Assembly: GCA_963693315.1 (NCBI GenBank)
Contig: OY856188.1
Coordinates: 202,814,050 to 202,878,049, forward strand
DNA length: 64,000 nucleotides
Direction of reading: 5' to 3'
DNA from: Diogma glabrata
Taxonomy: Eukaryota; Arthropoda; Insecta; Diptera; Cylindrotomidae
The position numbers were made by a program, and so were the translations under genes. Every line of letters starts with the position of its first letter. Position 1 is the stretch's first letter. Shown here piece after piece: positions 2,180-22,414 of the stretch. The notes beneath the pieces are model-generated. The model saw only the letters and a list, made by a program, of their open reading frames with translations. It made no database searches and was not told the DNA's origin.

Positions 2180-2800
2180 AATTGCTCAAGAACGGCTCAG
2201 TGTTGCCAGATCGCGGGATTTTTTCCCGTTTGCGGAATATTTCATATAAAACGGGTAAACACTTGGAAAGTGCGGGATTTTTCACATTTAATAGTAGAAG
2301 CGTTTTAAATTAAAACTTATTTGGAAATGGTTGCACCAACCAATTTTTTTACCAGGCTTCAGAAAGATGTCGATCACCTGATCGAATTTTACTTAAATGC
2401 ATCTGCCATCTATCGGCTTTAGTATTGTCAAATCCGCGATGGAATTTCAGCCTTCTGATGTTGAAATATTTCTTAGGGAGAAAAGGACGTTTCGAAAACC
2501 CCAAAGCACCACCATGGGCCATTAACATAATTGTACTGGATGACATAATTTTACTTCGGACAATAAATGACTGCCATTCATAAAAATGAGCCATAAAAAA
2601 ACAGCAATGACCTATACAATGTTGTACGCATTTGGCCCAGTAACAGACCAATAATGATGATCAGTATATGCAGCAATGACCGAGTCCCGGCGACTGGGAC
2701 ATTAAAAAAATATAAAATAGGCAAATTTAAATAAATTTAATACAAAACAATTAATAATTTAAAAAAATTTAAAACTTTACGAACCTCAAACCTAATCAAT
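2180..2800. other. Possible hAT end and an unassigned antisense frame
   Basis: CAGTGTTGCCAGAT at about 2198 followed by GCGGGATTTTTTCCCG resembles the start of hAT-like elements, but I find no partner end in the window. From 2651 to 2349 a 100-codon minus frame is open and less AT-rich than its surroundings. I recognise no family in it and do not call it a gene. Confidence 0.3.
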
Positions 2801-2807
2801 ATTTTCA

Positions 2808-3149
2808 TTGTCTTTCAGCGGAGTAGCGATAACTAAACTAGGTGAAATTTTTCAAATATGTAATAGTTCTAAAATGAATTTTGCTCTAGTGAATTTTAAA
2901 AACCAAATAATAGGCTGGCTCTTGGCTCAGTGCTTGGTTGTATTTAAATTGGACCCTGCTTGGGATGTTATAAATTTTAATCAAAATAATTTCATGCATG
3001 AAGATGTTATGTGCAAACTGCAAACATCATACATTTTCATGTGGCATAAAAAAATTCAAAAGCTATTATTAGCCGCAGGCATATCAAATCAGAGCAAGCT
3101 TGAAGCCTACAACAAAATAAACAGCATTAAAAAAATTTACCGGAAGTAA
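2808..3149 (+). CDS. Unidentified exon-like ORF, 110 codons
   Basis: An open frame of about 110 codons ends at a TAA at 3147-3149. There is no upstream ATG in frame; instead the frame begins just after a good splice-acceptor sequence (ATTTTCATTGTCTTTCAG, ending at 2818), so an exon reading from about 2819 is a better guess than a whole gene. The product would begin SGVAITKLGEIFQIC and contain WLLAQCLVVFKLDPAWDVI. It has a lysine-rich tail and no signal peptide. I recognise no family. It could be the last exon of a host gene or a transposon protein; composition and frame length favour real coding sequence, past or present. Confidence 0.35.
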   Translation: MSFSGVAITKLGEIFQICNSSKMNFALVNFKNQIIGWLLAQCLVVFKLDPAWDVINFNQNNFMHEDVMCKLQTSYIFMWHKKIQKLLLAAGISNQSKLEAYNKINSIKKIYRK

Positions 3150-3208
3150 TAAACCTAAAATTGTAGTTTACAATTACTATAGAAATCTTATTTGAACTTT
3201 TTATATCA

Positions 3209-4267
3209 GGGTAGTTCTACAAACATAGGAATTTTGGACGGCTCTGCTTATTTCGTATATTAATATGAAAAAAAAATTTTGTTTTCGCATGAAATTTGTA
3301 AACCTTAACTATGTCTAGCTGGTCACCCAAAATAAACCTGTTTCGAAATATACGTCTTAGAAAAAAAATTATTCAAAACGTCAAATTATCAGTCCGCTGG
3401 CGTGTCCCACCTTGAAATTCAAAGCTGGTAAACTAAATAATCAATTTCTTTGGTATTTTTTGTAAAATAATGATAATCAATGATTCTAAGTGTGTAGAGA
3501 CAAATTTACTCTGTATTAATAATTTTGAATAATGATGCTTTAATAATGTGTAAATAATCATAACATAACTCTATATTTCATATTAGATATATCCTATTAA
3601 AGTTTGTCCCACCAATTTGTTATTATTCTCCTGTCCAATCAAAACACATTGAAAATATTGGAAATTCATATTTCTATCAAGTTATCGCTCGTCACAGGAA
3701 TTAATTAAAGTTCAATAAATATAATATTGCAAGTGTTTTACTTAGTCCGAGGTTTTATCATTCAAAACAGTCATCATTACTAGCAAGATTGTGTGTTGTC
3801 CAGTCAAATTATCAGTCCCCTGGCAAGCATTTTCGTAAAAAGTATTTTAATTACAGGAAATTTTGTAATTTTATACGTCGTGAATATGTATTGCCTTGGT
3901 ATAAAATCCGTTTATTTTTTTTTTTTAGACGTAATTTTGTCATTTTTAAGCGAAATACTGATAAATTATCAGTCCCCTGTTCTCAGTCCCCTGGAAGATT
4001 TAAAAGCGGGCAGACTTAGATAAATGTTTATTTCGTATTTTGAGATAATATTGAGACAATTTTGAGTTAATTTAGGATTAAGAAGAATATTTTTTAATTT
4101 TGACTCTTATATTTTTGTGTTTTTTTTTTTTGTTTTGACTGGCCACATTCAGAAACGTTGAAAGAACGTCATCAACTTTAACTAAAACTAGTTGCCAGAA
4201 CTTATACGCAAAAAACATGTCGTGCCGTAATTAGCTCCATTTTCTTCCTTCGTGTGTAGAACTACCC
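3209..4267. mobile_element. TIR DNA element with 4-bp TSD, superfamily unknown
   Basis: The left end GGGTAGTTCTACAAAC and the right end (reverse complement) GGGTAGTTCTACACAC form a 16-bp TIR with one mismatch. The 4-bp sequence ATCA flanks both ends (3205-3208 and 4268-4271). The interior is AT-rich and repeats the motif AAATTATCAGTCCCCTGG at about 3385 (variant), 3806 and 3963, the last partly duplicated. Two overlapping 76-codon frames at 3789-4023 fall in this repeat and look non-coding. The element is probably non-autonomous. Confidence 0.65.
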
Positions 4268-4996: not shown

Positions 4997-5064
4997 TACC
5001 CGACTGGAAATTAGTTCAGGGAACCCGGATTATGATCAGATCCGGATCAGATTTTCCGTAATAC

Positions 5065-5462
5065 GGCTATCTGATCAGTTCCTGATCAGCGTACAGTACC
5101 GTTTCCCTTGATCCGGCCATCTGATCAGTTCCTGATCAGCGTACAGTACCGTTTCCCTTGATCCGGCCATCTGATCAGTTTTGGATCAGCGTACAGTACC
5201 GTTTCCCTTGATCCGGCTATCTGATCAGTTCCGGATCAGCATACAGTACCGTTTCCCTTGATCTGGCTATCTGATCAGTTACTGATCAGCTTGCAGTACC
5301 GTTTCCCTTGATCCGGCCATCTGATCAGTTCCGGATCAGCGTACAGTACCGTTTCCCTTGATCCGGCTATCTGATCAGTTCCGGATCAGCGTACAGTACC
5401 GTTTCCCTTGATCCGGCTATCTGATCAGTTACTGATCAGCGTGCAGTACTTTATCCGGTGAT
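5065..5462. repeat. Tandem array, 50-bp unit, about 8 copies
   Basis: The unit contains CTGATCAGTTCCTGATCAG, then CGTACAGTACC, then GTTTCCCTTGATCCGG, repeated at exact 50-base spacing with a few substitutions per unit. Each unit contains a short palindromic CTGATCAG and an imperfect GATCAGTTCCTGATC dyad. The array lies directly inside the left TIR of the element, a place where subterminal transposase-binding repeats are commonly found. Confidence 0.9.
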
Positions 5463-11221: not shown

Positions 11222-11410
11222 AGAACACTATTTAAAACGTGGTCAAGTGGGGTGTCATTTGAAAGAGCACCTAATTTAGAAATCAGTGCAATTTTGTGCA
11301 ATCAGCAAAATTTTGCGGTGCACAGTTTTAGAGTTATTGTCAAAAAAGCTCAACTTCCAGACCGCCCCCCTACGTTACGACGCTGATTGACAGAAAAATT
11401 TGTAAAAATT
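11222..11410 (+). repeat. Satellite unit interrupted by the LTR element (left part)
   Basis: This segment, from GTGGGGTGTCATTTGAAAGAGC to GATTGACAGAAAAATTTGTAAAAATT, matches the uninterrupted unit at 17190-17354. The unit's continuation, TTTACAGAGTTAGGAAG, is found only on the far side of the LTR element at 17060. The intact neighbouring unit therefore shows the pre-insertion site directly. Confidence 0.85.
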
Positions 11411-12734
11411 TGTAACGATCGCAATAATCGCAAAACAATAATAAAACCAAATTCCTCTTTGTTTTCAATTCAATAGAAATGTATTTCATTAGTTTCCGTT
11501 CATTTTTACATTAACAATAATTTTAAAATTTTCTAATACTTTACTGCTAGTTAAATTTCGAATATACTATAAAAAGCAAACGAACGTACTCAATTTTATT
11601 TCCAATTCTAACAAACAGATGTTGTTGCTAATCTTTGTTGAATTTTGGAGTATTGCACGATTTGTTTTTTTCTGATATGAAGATGTAAAAACAAGAAAAG
11701 ATCACTTTTCTCATGAATGTCAAAAATAAAGGATTGAAATTTTTGCATTCATGCACTTTTCATCTTAAATCTAAGTTATAATATAAGTAGTGCAATTTTT
11801 AATTAAATCGGTTTTTTTAAATTAGTTCCAATTAGTTCAATTTTTTTAATTGTATCCGTCCTGCTAGTGAAATTTAGTAAAAAAATTTATATGTCTTGTG
11901 TTGTGCCGTATCAATTTAAAATAAAAGGAAAAAATCACATTTTTGGATGGAATGAGTTTTCGATGTTAAAAGTTTGATTTAAATAAAAATTCATTCCGGT
12001 TTTAGTTTTTCAAAAGATGACATCTAGTCAAAGTTTGTTCATGTTTAGAAAAAAATAAGTTCATTGATAATTATATCAAAAACAAATTTTTGTAATGTTA
12101 TATTTAAACACAAAAATGTTTTATGAAAGTTTGAATAGTGTGTTTTTAATTATAAGTGTCTGGAATTAAAAATAAAAAAATAAATTGATTTATATCAAAG
12201 ATTACGTTTGATTTATTCTAAATGTGAGGATCAAATGTACATATTACACACAAATGAACATTTTAATATATTTACAAATAATTTAATGAGAAAAGGTAAA
12301 CAAGCTATAAAACTATTTAAGGAAGGTAAAGAAAAGATGTTTGATGAAAATTCTCAATATCGAAGGAATTTAACAAAATTAAGTCTGGTTTTTTTGCACA
12401 TATGTTAAGTGAATTAAAAGCTATATTTCCAAATGGATTTTTTGCTGGTGAATGGAAAGAAAACAACGAAGGCAATCTGGAAAGGATAGAAGGCATCACA
12501 TCGATTACATAGAAGATAAGTTTATTTGTTTTTATATATATATATTATTAATTAATTCCGAAGTTTAACTATTGAAATGTCAGATTAGGAATAAGTATTT
12601 TAAGAGATTCCTAAATTCAGATTTGTGTGAGGGTGATCGTTACAATCCGTAGGTTAGTTATATTTTTATTTTTTCTTGAAGTAGTAAAATTGTTGTGTAT
12701 AAAAGTTCAAGCCACCTACAGTGGCACTCGCAAT
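11411..12734 (+). repeat. 5' LTR of the Cbl-carrying element
   Basis: Begins TGTAACGATCGCAATAATCG and ends GTGGCACTCGCAAT. It contains the Cbl-like exon at 12201-12447 with AT-rich, intron-like DNA on both sides. A GATCGTTACA near 12636-12645 is the inverse of the LTR's first ten bases, so an internal terminus is possible, but the repeat continues 90 bases past it. A TATAAAAG word at about 12697 lies only 38 bases from the LTR end, leaving almost no R-U5 if it is the promoter. Confidence 0.75.
12201..12447 (+). pseudogene. Cbl: Captured exon of Cbl (E3 ubiquitin ligase, N-terminal four-helix domain), copy 1
   Basis: The frame from about 12202 reads [12 protein letters not shown], then [35 protein letters not shown] and [11 protein letters not shown], and after a frame change [17 protein letters not shown]. 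This lines up with the four-helix bundle of the Cbl tyrosine-kinase-binding domain (human residues about 85-180, recalled from the family, including LFKEGKERMYEENSQ and [19 protein letters not shown]). The match starts one base after an AG (TATATCAAAG) and stops at a donor-like G|GTGAAT, so it looks like one exon taken with intron margins at DNA level, not a spliced cDNA copy. A run of seven T at 12389-12395, where five would keep the frame, breaks it. It cannot encode the whole domain. Confidence 0.85.
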
Positions 12735-15725
12735 AACTGGCAGCCGAAACAAAGACCTGGGGCTTTGTAAGGGTTTTTTTTATATTTGAATTATATGAGT
12801 AAATAATTAATGATTTTGTATATTTTTGGCGCAGTTTTAGGCGTTGGTTGTCAAACCGGTTTGGTTTGGCAAAGATATTCATATAATATTATTATAAATT
12901 TTTGTAATTTTTGGGTAAAACCAGTATTGGTTTTTTTTGTTGACATATTTTTGGATGATGCAATTAATTTATATATGAAATTAATTGTATGTTTTTTTTG
13001 ATTATGGTTAGATTTAGTAAATGTTTAGCTAGCTTTTTTCAATGCACTCATACGCGATCCCCATATTCGTCATTGGTTTAATGTGAGTTACAATTTCGAG
13101 GTATTGATTTATGTATTATTCACACTATAGAGTGGATGTCAATAGAACATGTCTCATTACAGTTCTATAAACTTTTGAACTTATACGGAAATGATGAAAT
13201 ATTTTTATTTGGCTAATATAATGTTCATTTTTGGCCAAAACGACTTCTATTGCAGTACGCCTTATTAGATTTTATGATTTGTACATGGATTGTTTTGTGT
13301 ATCTCATATATATATATACAAAATAATTTATGTCAAACCTGAAAGTCTGGGTAGGTTTTCTATTGCAACACAATTCGTTTGGTGAAAGAATTTTTTGTGG
13401 TTAAGTCATGTTTTTATGAGTTTTAGGATGTTATTAACGTAATAAAAGTTAACATTGACCAAACAGTTTTTCAACAATTTTGTATAAGTTTAAATCTTTC
13501 GTCACTACTTTCAAAGTATTATTGGTCTGTGTTTATAGAAGTATAATTGAAAATAATTAATTCCCATTAGCTTTATAGAGTGAGCCGGATTCAAATCAAT
13601 ATCTCCACATTTGTCATCATATTGATCCGCTGACGTACGTATACATATCTCGTATGAGTCCATTTTAGTTACCACCATTTTTTAAATTATTTTTTATTGT
13701 GATTAATTTAAAAAATAAGATAAATATAGAAATAATTATTTTTAGCTAACATTTATTTTTGTTTTGAATACAATAAATAAAGCGATGAAAATTTGACCTG
13801 AACAAATATATTAGAATTAATAACTTAAAAATTAGTAAGCTTAGTTTTAAATTTAAAATAATCGTAATTTTTTTTTAATATAAATTACCAATTTATTATC
13901 TAGTCTGAAGATTAAATTTAATTAATTTCATGTAAAACTTTATTAACACATATTATATATTTCATGTTTCGATTTAGCATTTTTAAATAAGAAATTATTT
14001 AGATTATGGATAAGTTATGTATTATTTACTTTATGTTAATGTATAAATTCTACTTTCCCAGCGGTAGGCCTAACAAGCCATCCATGGGGCTTCTCCCCTT
14101 AACGATGATGTCGTTCTTAGATCGCCTATGGCCATCGGGGTTATGCGATCGAAGAACAGTGGTTTCTTCTCTTCATTCGGCGAGGAAGTCCTCAGGGACG
14201 AGGAGTGGTGTTGTTGTGTTTGTACTTAGGTGCAAACCAGTAGTACCATTCTTTGCTCAGAGGCTTCTTCGGTGTAATGAAGAGAGGAACCAATTGTACT
14301 TTGCTTTCAGGATCAGAGGCTTCACCTCATACAAATTCAAAAACTTACCATTTTTTTCCACTTAGCTTTTACAATAGAACAATTTTTCATAGAGTTTAAG
14401 ATTTGAAGTCTGGTGCTCGGGAGCGTTCTACAACTTTCGCATTAGGTTTAGTTGTAATTTATTTGTAGGTTAAACAAGCACAACTGGGTCAGTAGAAATG
14501 GACCTAGTGTCTAATCGTGACAGTTGTGATTGTTTTATTAGGTTGGGGAGAATCTGTTCTGTAGAATCTGGTCGTTAGGGGCTTTTCTAGTCAGTTCTCA
14601 CATGCATGGTTGGAGTGGGCTCGCGAACGCGATATTTTAAATTTAAACAATATGGATATTGTAGCCATACTTACTTTTTAAATTGTCTCCAGACGAATCT
14701 TGATTTTGGGAATCTCTTATGATATTAAATAAAAAAATAAAATAAATCAAACAAATTTTTCAAAAATTAAATAAATAAAATTTTTATTAAATAAATTAAA
14801 TTTTCGTTATTTAAAATAATTTTAGGTAAATAAATAATTTTTTCGTAATTTAAATAGTTTTAGGTAACTAAATAAATAATTTTTTTTAATTACACAATAC
14901 ATCAAGATATAAATAAATATTTTTTATTTTTTTAAAAAAAATAAATCAATATTTTGAGCTAGGACGGTGCATCCAATAAATAAACATCCTTTCTGAATAT
15001 TTTTTATTTTTCAATTTTTTTTAAAAATAAATAAATATATTTTAGGGGTGCTATCGTCAATAACTAATTTTAGGTATATATAATTATTTCAGTATATCTG
15101 AAATTAAATAAATAGATTATACTTTTACATATATAATGTTTTAGGAATTTTTTGTGAGAGATTCAGCAAAGATTGGCTACGACGGTGGTCCTTTTTGTTC
15201 CTTTACAACGTTTGTTTTTACAAAAAATCTTGTATGTTTTCGAATTGGGCGTTCGTTGTTTTTTTTTTCGTTTTTGTGCTTTCATCCTTTTTACATTTCC
15301 GTCGTACTAACTCCATTTTTTTTTGTTGAGAATTGGTTTTACTATTGTTGGTGATTGCGAGTCATGATTTTGCGGGTTTTACCATCGAAATCTCTAGCGT
15401 CTGTTTCCTATATACCAAGCCTAAGTTTTTCAATATATTTTTTTTATAAAATTAAATTTAGTGTTAGAATTATTAGTTGTCATAAATTAAACATCTATTC
15501 TTAATCATTAGTTATTATAGTTATAAATTTAATTCTCGGTTTTTAGAATTTAAATAGGTGTTATATTTAATATTACTTAGTTATTATAATTTTTTTTATT
15601 AGTTATTAGAATTTCTATTATTAGTTTAAGTTTAATAGTGCTTTGGTGGTTTCTGTCATGGAGGGGATGGCGACGTTTTTGTGATTTCAAGAGTAGAAAT
15701 CTTGATTTTTACCTTGAATTCATGG
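12735..15725 (+). other. Internal region of the LTR element, non-coding
   Basis: About 3 kb with no retroviral-type domain in any frame I examined. It is AT-rich except for a GC-richer island at 14055-14345. On the plus strand a 119-codon frame covers that island (14006-14365); on the minus strand one frame reads SHNPDGHRRSKNDIIVKGRS and then PMDGLLGLPLGK before a stop. Either could be another captured host segment, but I recognise neither. Short purine runs occur near 15659 (GGAGGGGATGG), about 65 bases before the 3' LTR, rather far for a polypurine tract. Confidence 0.5.
12738..12755 (+). other. Putative primer-binding site
   Basis: TGGCAGCCGAAACAAAGA starts three bases after the 5' LTR. 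A TGG beginning is expected because it pairs with the CCA tail of a tRNA. I cannot name the tRNA with confidence. Its position supports reading the element on the plus strand. Confidence 0.5.
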
Positions 15726-17057
15726 TGTAACGATCGCAATAATCGCAAAACAATAATAAAACCAAATTCCTCTTTGTTTTCAATTCAATAGAAATGTATT
15801 TCATTAGTTTCCGTTCATTTTTACATTAACAATAATTTTAAAATTTTCTAATACTTTACTGCTAGTTAAATTTCGAATATACTATAAAAAGCAAACGAAC
15901 GTACTCAATTTTATTTCCAATTCTAACAAACAGATGTTGTTGCTAATCTTTGTTGAATTTTGGAGTATTGCACGATTTGTTTTTTTCTGATATGAAGATG
16001 TAAAAACAAGAAAAGATCACTTTTCTCATGAATGTCAAAAATAAAGGATTGAAATTTTTGCATTCATGCACTTTTCATCTTAAATCTAAGTTATAATATA
16101 AGTAGTGCAATTTTTAATTAAATCGGTTTTTTTAAATTAGTTCCAATTAGTTCAATTTTTTTAATTGTATCCGTCCTGCTAGTGAAATTTAGTAAAAAAA
16201 TTTATATGTCTTGTGTTGTGCCGTATCAATTTAAAATAAAAGGAAAAAATCACATTTTTGGATGGAATGAGTTTTCGATGTTAAAAGTTTGATTTAAATA
16301 AAAATTCATTCCGGTTTTAGTTTTTCAAAAGATGACATCTAGTCAAAGTTTGTTCATGCAATCATGTTTAGAAAAAAATAAGTTCATTGATAATTATATC
16401 AAAAACAAATTTTTGTAATGTTATATTTAAACACAAAAATGTTTTATGAAAGTTTGAATAGTGTGTTTTTAATTATAAGTGTCTGGAATTAAAAATAAAA
16501 TAATAAATTGATTTATATCAAAGATTACGTTTGATTTATTCTAAATGTGAGGATCAAATGTACATATTACACACAAATGAACATTTTAATATATTTACAA
16601 ATAATTTAATGAGAAAAGGTAAACAAGCTATAAAACTATTTAAGGAAGGTAAAGAAAAGATGTTTGATGAAAATTCTCAATATCGAAGGAATTTAACAAA
16701 ATTAAGTCTGGTTTTTTTGCACATATGTTAAGTGAATTAAAAGCTATATTTCCAAATGGATTTTTTGCTGGTGAATGGAAAGAAAACAACGAAGGCAATC
16801 TGGAAAGGATAGAAGGCATCACATCGATTACATAGAAGATAAGTTTATTTGTTTTTATATATATATATTATTAATTAATTCCGAAGTTTAACTATTGAAA
16901 TGTCAGATTAGGAATAAGTATTTTAAGAGATTCCTAAATTCAGATTTGTGTGAGGGTGATCGTTACAATCCGTAGGTTAGTTATATTTTTATTTTTTCTT
17001 GAAGTAGTAAAATTGTTGTGTATAAAAGTTCAAGCCACCTACAGTGGCACTCGCAAT
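15726..17057 (+). repeat. 3' LTR of the Cbl-carrying element
   Basis: Nearly identical to the 5' LTR. The visible differences are an 8-base insertion (CATGCAAT, a local duplication around 16358) and one A/T change in an A-rich run near 16502. It is followed by the AAATT target duplication and the rest of the interrupted satellite unit. Confidence 0.8.
16524..16770 (+). pseudogene. Cbl: Captured Cbl exon, copy 2
   Basis: Base-for-base the same as the exon-like segment at 12201-12447 as far as I can read, including the seven-T run that breaks the frame and the AG / GTGAAT margins. The shared frame break shows that it predates this insertion, because both LTRs of a new copy derive from one template. 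Confidence 0.85.
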
Positions 17058-17493
17058 AAATTTACAGAGTTAGGAAGTTTGGTAAATTTTAAATGAAAAT
17101 TATAGCGAAGTCTCAAATAGATATATATTTCTGTGTTTAGGGGACGGGTGTAGAAAGGGTAAAATAAAAACTTTTTTTTGACCCAAGCAAGTGGGGTATC
17201 ATTTGAAAGAGCACCTAATTTAGAAATCATTGCAATTTTTTTAGAATTTTGCGGTGCACAGTTTTTGAGTTATTGCCAAAAAAAAGCTCAACATCCAGAC
17301 CGACCCTCCCCTACGTTACGACACTGATTGACAGAAAAATTTGTAAAAATTTACAGAGTTAGGAAGTTTGGTAAATTTTGAATGAAAATCATAGCGAAGT
17401 CTCAAATAATTATATTTCTGGGTGTTTAGGGGACGGGGGTGGGTAAATAAAATCTTTTTTGACCCTAGCGAGTGGGGTGTCATTTGAAAAAGC
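17058..17493 (+). repeat. Tandem satellite, unit about 280 bp
   Basis: Units are marked by AAGTGGGGTATCATTTGAAAGAGC at 17190 and GAGTGGGGTGTCATTTGAAA at 17470, and by TTTACAGAGTTAGGAAGTTTGGTAAATTTT at 17060 and 17350. Together with 11222-11410 this makes a little over two units before the LTR-like copy B interrupts the array. Related copies lie at 41150-41780 and 49980-50200. It is non-coding; the 63- and 71-codon minus frames here are the same repeat read twice. Confidence 0.8.
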
Positions 17494-21552: not shown

Positions 21553-21633
21553 ATATATACCAGAGGTGGCCAAGCTTCACTACACGTTGAGCCGCAGTAC
21601 AATAATCTCTCGTTTCGAGAGCCACAAAAAAAA

Positions 21634-21953
21634 TTTTTTCTCCGATAGACAGCAAATATAAATTTTGCAGACTTATTTAAGTCAGCAAAGTGGCACTTTT
21701 CCTGCCTAGGCAGCAAAGCAAGTACTTTGCTGCCTAGGCAGCAAAATAATTAGACTTCATAGAAATAAACAGATATTGCGATTAAAAAAAAAAATTTTTC
21801 TCCGATAGACAGCAAATATAAATTTTGCAGACTTATTTCAGTCAGCAAAGTGGCACTTTTCCTGCCTAGGCAGCAAAGCAAGTACTTTGCTGCCTAGGCA
21901 GCAAAATAATTAGACTTCATAGAAATAAACAGATATTGCGATTAAAAAAAAAA
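21634..21953. repeat. 160-bp tandem duplication with 17-bp perfect hairpin
   Basis: TCCGATAGACAGCAAATATAAATTTTGC and the following sequence occur at 21641 and again at 21801, nearly unchanged over 160 bases. Each copy holds CTGCCTAGGCAGCAAAG, six bases, then its exact inverse (21702-21741 and 21862-21901). Confidence 0.9.
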
Positions 21954-22414
21954 TTTTTTTAATCGATTTTTTTTTTCATTTTTAAAATTTTGCTTTATTT
22001 TTAAAGTAATAATTATTAAATTACATATCATTGTAATTAATCGGAGAAAAAATTATATGTTCAACTCGGCAGCAAGGTAGATTGACTGCCTTGGCTGAAT
22101 TCCTAGCCTCGCTCGCTCGGGTATGAACTATCAGCCGCGGCAGTCAATTTACTACTTTGCTGCCTAGTTAAACAAATAACTATTTTTAATCGATTTTTTT
22201 TTTCATTTTTAAAATTTTGCTGTATTTTTAAAGTAATAATTATTAAATTACATATCATTGTAATTAATCGGAGAAAAAATTATATGTTCAACTCGGCAGC
22301 AAGGTAGATTGACTGCCTTGGCTGAATTCCTAGCCTCGCTCGCTCGGCTATGAACTGTCAGCCGCGGCAGTCAATCTACTACTTTGCTGCCTAGTTAAAC
22401 AAATAACTATTTCA
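21954..22414. repeat. 227-bp tandem duplication with GC-rich hairpin
   Basis: The block from AATCGATTTTTTTTTTCATTT (21961) to CTAGTTAAACAAATAACTATTT recurs at 22188. In each copy GGTAGATTGACTGCC pairs with GGCAGTCAAT(T/C)TACTAC about 80 bases on, enclosing CTAGCCTCGCTCGCTCGG. It directly follows the 160-bp duplication, so the hAT interior carries two adjacent doublings. Confidence 0.9.

Follow-up and report, generated by a model that had tools for sequence, protein, structure and literature searches.

Host-gene captures by animal retroelements are usually met as finished products within the body of the element. TART-A, a non-LTR telomeric retrotransposon of Drosophila melanogaster, has captured a piece of nxf2 in its 3' UTR, and small-RNA targeting of the host gene has been proposed (PMC7785250); crocodilian endogenous retroviruses carry KIT-ligand or nectin3 as protein-coding ORFs under purifying selection (PMC4299795); and v-Cbl is a truncated Cbl expressed by a retrovirus as a 357-aa oncoprotein (PMC6563115). 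Host gene fragments are also carried by LTR retrotransposons of maize, rice and sorghum (PMC2774510, PMC3726574), and the hybrid LTR of BARE-2 in barley was rebuilt by abnormal template switching (PMC13317346).

Here we analyse a stretch of 64,000 nt of the genome of the fly Diogma glabrata (contig OY856188.1; hereafter the window), containing an LTR retrotransposon with part of the host's own Cbl gene in each LTR. We propose, with a probability of about 0.68, that a Ty3/gypsy-type family took the start of host Cbl into its LTR once, from spliced RNA and by 5' transduction and template switching, and that the hybrid LTR then spread. As with TART-A and nxf2, an insect retrotransposon recently captured a host-gene piece that was then amplified, with the donor insertion apparently lost; however, the capture lies here inside the LTR of an LTR element and shows splice-like joins, and it concerns a signalling gene in hundreds of copies, whereas the TART-A target is a silencing factor and nine copies are named in the reference genome (PMC7785250). 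As to the other cases, the foreign part of the BARE-2 LTR comes from the retrotransposon Wis-2 instead of a host gene (PMC13317346); the maize, rice and sorghum cases are from plants, and capture inside the LTR itself is not described in the available portions of those reports (PMC2774510, PMC3726574); the crocodilian elements likewise captured host mRNA, but here we have an LTR fragment with no protein-level constraint detected (PMC4299795); and v-Cbl derives from the same host gene, of which only part of the four-helix domain is found in our LTRs (PMC6563115). Gene capture by retroelements is, in short, already known; an animal element with host sequence taken into its LTR through splice-like joins seems to be a variant not described before. 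Among the titles and beginnings of abstracts listed by our searches of open-access papers, we found no report of a host exon inside an animal LTR.

The element occupies positions 11411-17058 and, as deduced from repeat alignment and from its flanks, is an LTR retrotransposon inserted in a satellite unit; the insertion is very young. Its 5' LTR (11411..12735) and 3' LTR (15726..17058), both on the plus strand, were delimited by aligning 11411-12736 with 15726-17059, direct repeats showing 99.3% identity over 1334 columns, with one mismatch and one 8-nt gap; these 8 nt are present in the host Cbl gene and in the 3' LTR, and were therefore lost by the 5' LTR. The original prediction had called a recent LTR element from nearly identical direct repeats of ca. 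1.33 kb, a target-site duplication, an empty target in the next satellite unit and a TGG primer-like site, and all of these are real, with two qualifications. The 5-bp duplication that it had reported, AAATT, is present if the LTR is one base shorter (left copy from 11406), but AATT is also possible with an LTR end ..GCAATA (left copy 11407..11410; right copy 17059..17062), and, by eye, 4-nt duplications fit two other copies, CATT in locus L045 and AAAC in L046. Likewise, the unoccupied equivalent of the target, at 17341..17358 in the self-alignment of the window, is a paralogous empty site and not an empty allele; the satellite flanks show 90% identity between 17058-17151 and 17347-17440, and 98% between 11367-11411 and 17308-17352. 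Elsewhere in the window there are tandem arrays (5064-5449 and 21626-22412), with units of 50, 160 and 227 nt.

A primer-binding-site-like (PBS-like) stretch, TGGCAGCCGAAAC, begins at 12738 and reads TGGCAGCCGAAACAAAG over 12738..12754 (plus strand, by sequence); at this site L045, a relative of 8 kb, carries TGGCGCCGAAACAGGGAC, which we take to be tRNA-Lys-like. The internal region (12736..15725, plus strand) has no recognisable gag-pol: of four window ORFs scanned against Pfam, only that in the LTR gave a match (Cbl_N). An Rfam search gave no match. The internal region corresponds mostly to the long 5' leader of L045, and aligns with that leader and with the 3' edge of L045, not with its gag-pol, which indicates that the window copy is a non-autonomous derivative; L047 is a short form of the same kind. 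Short and long forms alike have an open frame in the leader, 106-128 codons in length (14006-14365 in the window, 6784-7104 in L045 and 2468-2854 in L046), and its window and L046 versions have no Pfam match.

L045 encodes a Ty3/gypsy gag-pol in the order PR-RT-RH-INT, with Pfam matches to RVT_1 (4e-35), RT_RNaseH (4e-39), rve (2e-13) and Integrase_H2C2 (8e-21); the protease match is weak (RVP just at the cut-off), as is that to Retrotrans_gag (0.0017, under the cut-off). Through this relative and its gypsy-type gag, the family can be assigned, as judged from sequence, to the Ty3/gypsy group. We rejected an env-bearing virus (retrovirus or errantivirus) for L045, the only copy examined in this respect, which has no env and only ca. 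324 nt, not enough room for one, between the integrase stop and the 3' LTR. Sixteen neighbouring LTR pairs showed 0-0.71% mismatches (indels uncounted; L072 and L073 also differ by 37 nt), indicating that the family was active very recently. Among the first 100 capture-junction places listed (see below), there were 35 same-strand neighbour pairs within 15 kb, of which 13 were spaced by 3-5 kb, 14 by 7-9.5 kb and eight otherwise, leaving 30 places unpaired. Two Cbl-LTR loci 570 kb apart, L014 and L015 (C1:49.47 and 50.04 Mb), are 99.4% identical over 3.2 kb including their flanks; they are a segmental duplication or an assembly duplicate, not an LTR pair, and were left out of the pair counts. 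Additionally, L052 holds an open frame of 178 codons without a Pfam match, immediately 5' of a fragment of a family LTR.

The presence of Cbl sequence in both LTRs, as originally predicted, was borne out by ORF 12208-12408, which matches Pfam Cbl_N (E 1.3e-20) and solved CBL structures (E 1.5e-19). The genome's own Cbl is at C1:342.44-342.47 Mb, with exon 1 in L009, exon 2 in L043 and further exons in L041, which together encode the 4-helix, N2, N3 and RING domains. Exon 1 runs from the ATG at C1:342443100 to a donor, AATAG|GTAAAA, at C1:342443644, and exon 2 begins at TTTTAG|TACATTGG. The exon-1 protein is 86% identical to Homalodisca CBL and 89% to Gryllus CBL, and in view of this conservation of Cbl exon 1 among insects we rejected a transfer from element to host. 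The segment is closest to a host gene present elsewhere in the genome. Partial duplications surround host Cbl (C1:342.30-342.47 Mb), namely L010 and the inverted L042/L044; exon 1 in L010 is frameshifted and has some letters in common with LTR copies rather than with L009.

Comparison with this gene showed that the cassette consists of two fused host pieces, amounting to ca. 430 nt per LTR. Piece 1 (L009 1118-1286) is a stretch of 169 nt that lies upstream of the Cbl ATG and ends 106 nt before it, and piece 2 (L009 1615-1937) is the 3' part of exon 1, from codon 75 up to the end of the exon. In the window, piece 1 is at 12027..12187 in the 5' LTR, where the 8 nt are missing, and at 16342..16510 in the 3' LTR, which retains them; piece 2 is at 12187..12450, with its frame broken after ..NLTKLSLVF, and at 16510..16773, all on the plus strand. 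The segment first delimited, 12201-12447, is therefore Cbl-derived as claimed, but its true extent is longer (12027-12450) and includes sequence from upstream of the ATG. Similarly, the claim of a captured host exon stands as to part of exon 1 and as to the host-to-element direction, but not for a whole exon, and the intron margins that had been envisaged were a misreading, with no intron match in comparisons of the cassette with L009, L010 and the intron-1 loci L048, L079 and L043. TATA-like sequences lie, by eye, on both sides of the cassette in the window LTR.

In an older LTR type, represented by L013 and L073, pieces 1 and 2 are 97.6 and 98.8% identical to the host, versus ca. 95% in the window type. 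The older cassette reaches the end of exon 1, as AATAG|GAAATCATAC, and continues as GAAATCATACTGG; its last part is lost in the window type. Both fused pieces were seen in 63 of the 64 Cbl-bearing LTR loci read (some of which overlap, and with piece 1 cut short in L039), the exception, L076, being a remnant. As expected from the original prediction of a multi-copy element, we found the capture junction at 528 places of the genome (up to 3 mismatches; reversed-pattern control, 0). Since each insertion receives the LTR at both of its ends, the LTR provides efficient dispersal of host exon sequence.

Relatives without the Cbl segment also exist, sharing LTR sequence on the 3' side. A 23-nt pattern taken immediately 3' of the cassette has 182 occurrences (up to 2 mismatches); 30 of these loci were cut out, 22 with the cassette, one with a remnant (L076) and seven with none, and ten further short stretches comprised five with Cbl, one remnant (L085) and four without. 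Cbl-less LTRs thus make up 11 of the 40 LTR places read. The motif GTCAAAG is at the 5' border in three of the five Cbl-less LTRs readable there (L055, L068 and L071, reading CTAGTCAAAG), and is absent from the type of L056 and L077; L068, L071 and L086 have ..TTAAAG before GAAATC. In the Cbl-less L049, L055, L056, L068, L071, L077, L091, L092 and L093, other cassettes, different from that of Cbl, adjoin this LTR at the same base (AAATCATACTGG), and some of them may be further captures.

For phylogenetic analysis we chose 21 loci, leaving out L052 (disrupted by other sequence) and L076 (remnant). In the tree of the 3' flank (20 rows, L017 lacking the key string), a single branch separates Cbl-bearing from Cbl-less LTRs with a support of 99/100, whereas in that of the 5' flank (14 rows, after exclusion of six without a readable LTR start) both kinds are intermixed, with near-identical rows of each. 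This disagreement indicates that hybrid and Cbl-less LTRs exchanged parts, a pattern such as template switching would give.

A second host gene is represented in related LTRs. The peptide VVLTAAHC adjoins the Cbl remnant in L076 and L085, and its DNA occurs at 66 places (L076, L085 and L095 were read), among which a count by eye gave at least 14 same-strand neighbours at distances of 7-10 kb. The L076 peptide alone was under the cut-off against Pfam Trypsin (E 0.08), but L095, reading VTKVFVCDGILIHPHVVLTAAHCVYEKNAKYF, was over it (E 3.8e-6) and shows 79% identity over 95 nt with L097, which belongs to an open frame of 340 codons on C3 for a trypsin-type protease (Pfam E 9.5e-27). Positions 254-355 of L095 are 99% identical to 12443-12544 of the window, indicating that the window LTR is a recombinant in which a Cbl LTR passes, within the TGCTGGTGA common to both, into an LTR of the protease-bearing kind; this join is found at 206 places (up to 3 mismatches; control, 0). 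The protease-LTR-type stretch lies at 12443..12544 in the 5' LTR and, by offset, at 16766..16867 in the 3' LTR, both on the plus strand. In the window itself a protease origin can be argued for only the first ca. 25 nt, alignable by eye to an intact host protease gene, and the peptide of 12443-12544 has no Pfam match. L096 carries the protease piece of L095 (95.6% over 275 nt), followed downstream by sequence that resembles the family LTR by eye only and gave no blastn match to the LTRs of L073, L068 and L046. An Oxidored-like match (E 0.002, under the cut-off) was set aside as a chance match in the wrong frame.

How might the cassette have entered the LTR? The pieces, their joins and the Cbl-less relatives can be read directly in the assembly; splicing and strand transfer are what we infer. 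A Cbl transcript starting near C1:342442825 would have lost a cryptic intron of 329 nt, the missing host middle, which is readable as GT..AG, and the exon-1 donor would have been spliced to an acceptor in the LTR (..TTAAAG|GAAATCATAC, compare L068, L071 and L086), in the manner of 5' transduction. From the PBS, minus-strand synthesis would then have copied the chimeric 5' end, and the product would have been transferred through GTCAAAG to an element RNA, at its 3' LTR; one cycle would thus suffice to place the hybrid LTR at both ends. Later template switching with an LTR holding the protease fragment would have yielded the window type. Against this account, Cbl intron 1 in the assembly revealed no member of the family, so the donor insertion would have been lost or was elsewhere. 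Also against it, the donor of the cryptic intron (AAAGTG|GTCAAA) seems weak, GTCAAAG is missing in L056 and L077, and the letters shared at two of the joins (see below) fit other routes as well.

Alternatively, microhomology alone might account for the capture, with DNA or unspliced RNA as the source: copying would have entered Cbl at GTCAAAG and left it at AGG, and the 329 nt would have been lost by an unrelated deletion. By eye, each of the three joins has letters in common (7, 1 and 3 nt): besides GTCAAAG, a single G is repeated at the join of pieces 1 and 2, where a plain deletion also fits, and AGG is common to both sides of the 3' join, as a 3-nt microhomology switch would also leave; the present lack of an element in Cbl intron 1 is also in its favour. 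This route needs, however, two coincidences, a deletion with GT..AG ends, a register possible in only 540 of the 178622 distinct deletions of at least 60 nt of the host stretch (0.30%), and a break that falls no more than one base from the end of the exon, and we consider it less likely than capture from spliced RNA.

Once captured, the Cbl cassette is most likely a passenger in the cell: we detected no selection at the protein level, and the window type has a broken frame. Among 43 LTR rows (after removal of six overlapping duplicates and of the L045 and L047 rows), the 34 distinct coding changes comprised 24 nonsynonymous, 10 synonymous and no stop, against 73, 22 and 5% expected without selection (p 0.24).

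Instead of a passenger, the cassette might be a silencing weapon or shield, whose small RNAs would lower Cbl or would make silencing of the element costly, and which would thereby have aided its spread. The 528 junction copies are in line with this, as is the sequence in common with Cbl: the window LTR shares 122/803 perfect 21-mers with the host exon-1 region, with a longest perfect run of 55 nt, and L013 shares 313/803, with a run of 174 nt. Moreover, L080 (C1:110827000-110831000) contains inverted LTRs (465-1463 and 2565-3563) with 999-nt arms, 99% complementary and both with the cassette, which could be a source of Cbl-matching double-stranded RNA. Another opposite-strand pair, of the window-type join, lies at C1:207828055 and 207828655, 600 nt apart. 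To our knowledge, however, Cbl is not a silencing factor; the window type has also drifted from Cbl (95%), and the Cbl-less relatives are multi-copy as well, so that we find a weapon or shield improbable. From the perfect 21-mers and the inverted repeat, silencing RNAs against the Cbl-bearing LTRs could nevertheless hit Cbl itself, as argued for TART-A and nxf2, the precedent for this idea (PMC7785250); the spread of RNA to a signalling gene envisaged in the original prediction is to this extent possible.

We regard as very improbable that the cassette encodes a short Cbl-like protein interfering with host Cbl, for which v-Cbl is a precedent (PMC6563115). In some LTRs 108-117 codons remain open from stop to stop, and there are fewer distinct changes per base in the coding piece (34/327) than in piece 1 (35/168; p 0.002), which could hint at constraint; we did not accept this as selection, because 64 nt of the coding piece are absent from most of the 43 rows and because piece 1 is of low complexity. 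Against such a protein, the coding changes are as expected without selection, the Cbl frame has no ATG at its start, and only part of the four-helix domain is present, in a frame that is broken in the window type. Finally, a local duplication at the true Cbl locus, the alternative named with the original prediction, or an assembly artefact, can be dismissed despite the partial duplication of the Cbl region itself (L010, inverted L042/L044), as the window is on C4 and host Cbl on C1, and the same junction is dispersed in hundreds of copies, often with a spacing of 4 or 8 kb between neighbours.

A single genome thus holds the donor gene, the Cbl-less LTRs, the hybrid LTR and the later recombinant with the protease LTR, with Cbl pieces only 1-5% diverged, which makes the steps of the capture readable and testable. 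It also offers a natural test of whether silencing a transposon hits the host gene that it carries. Going further, and quite speculatively, the LTR might be a recurrent exon trap, combining an acceptor with strong-stop transfer, that would have taken up 5' exons of host genes, namely Cbl, separately the trypsin-like protease and perhaps others among the cassettes of L055, L056 and L092, and whose small RNAs would feed back on the donor genes. If this were true, the spread of the element and the level of a regulator of growth-factor signalling would be tied together.
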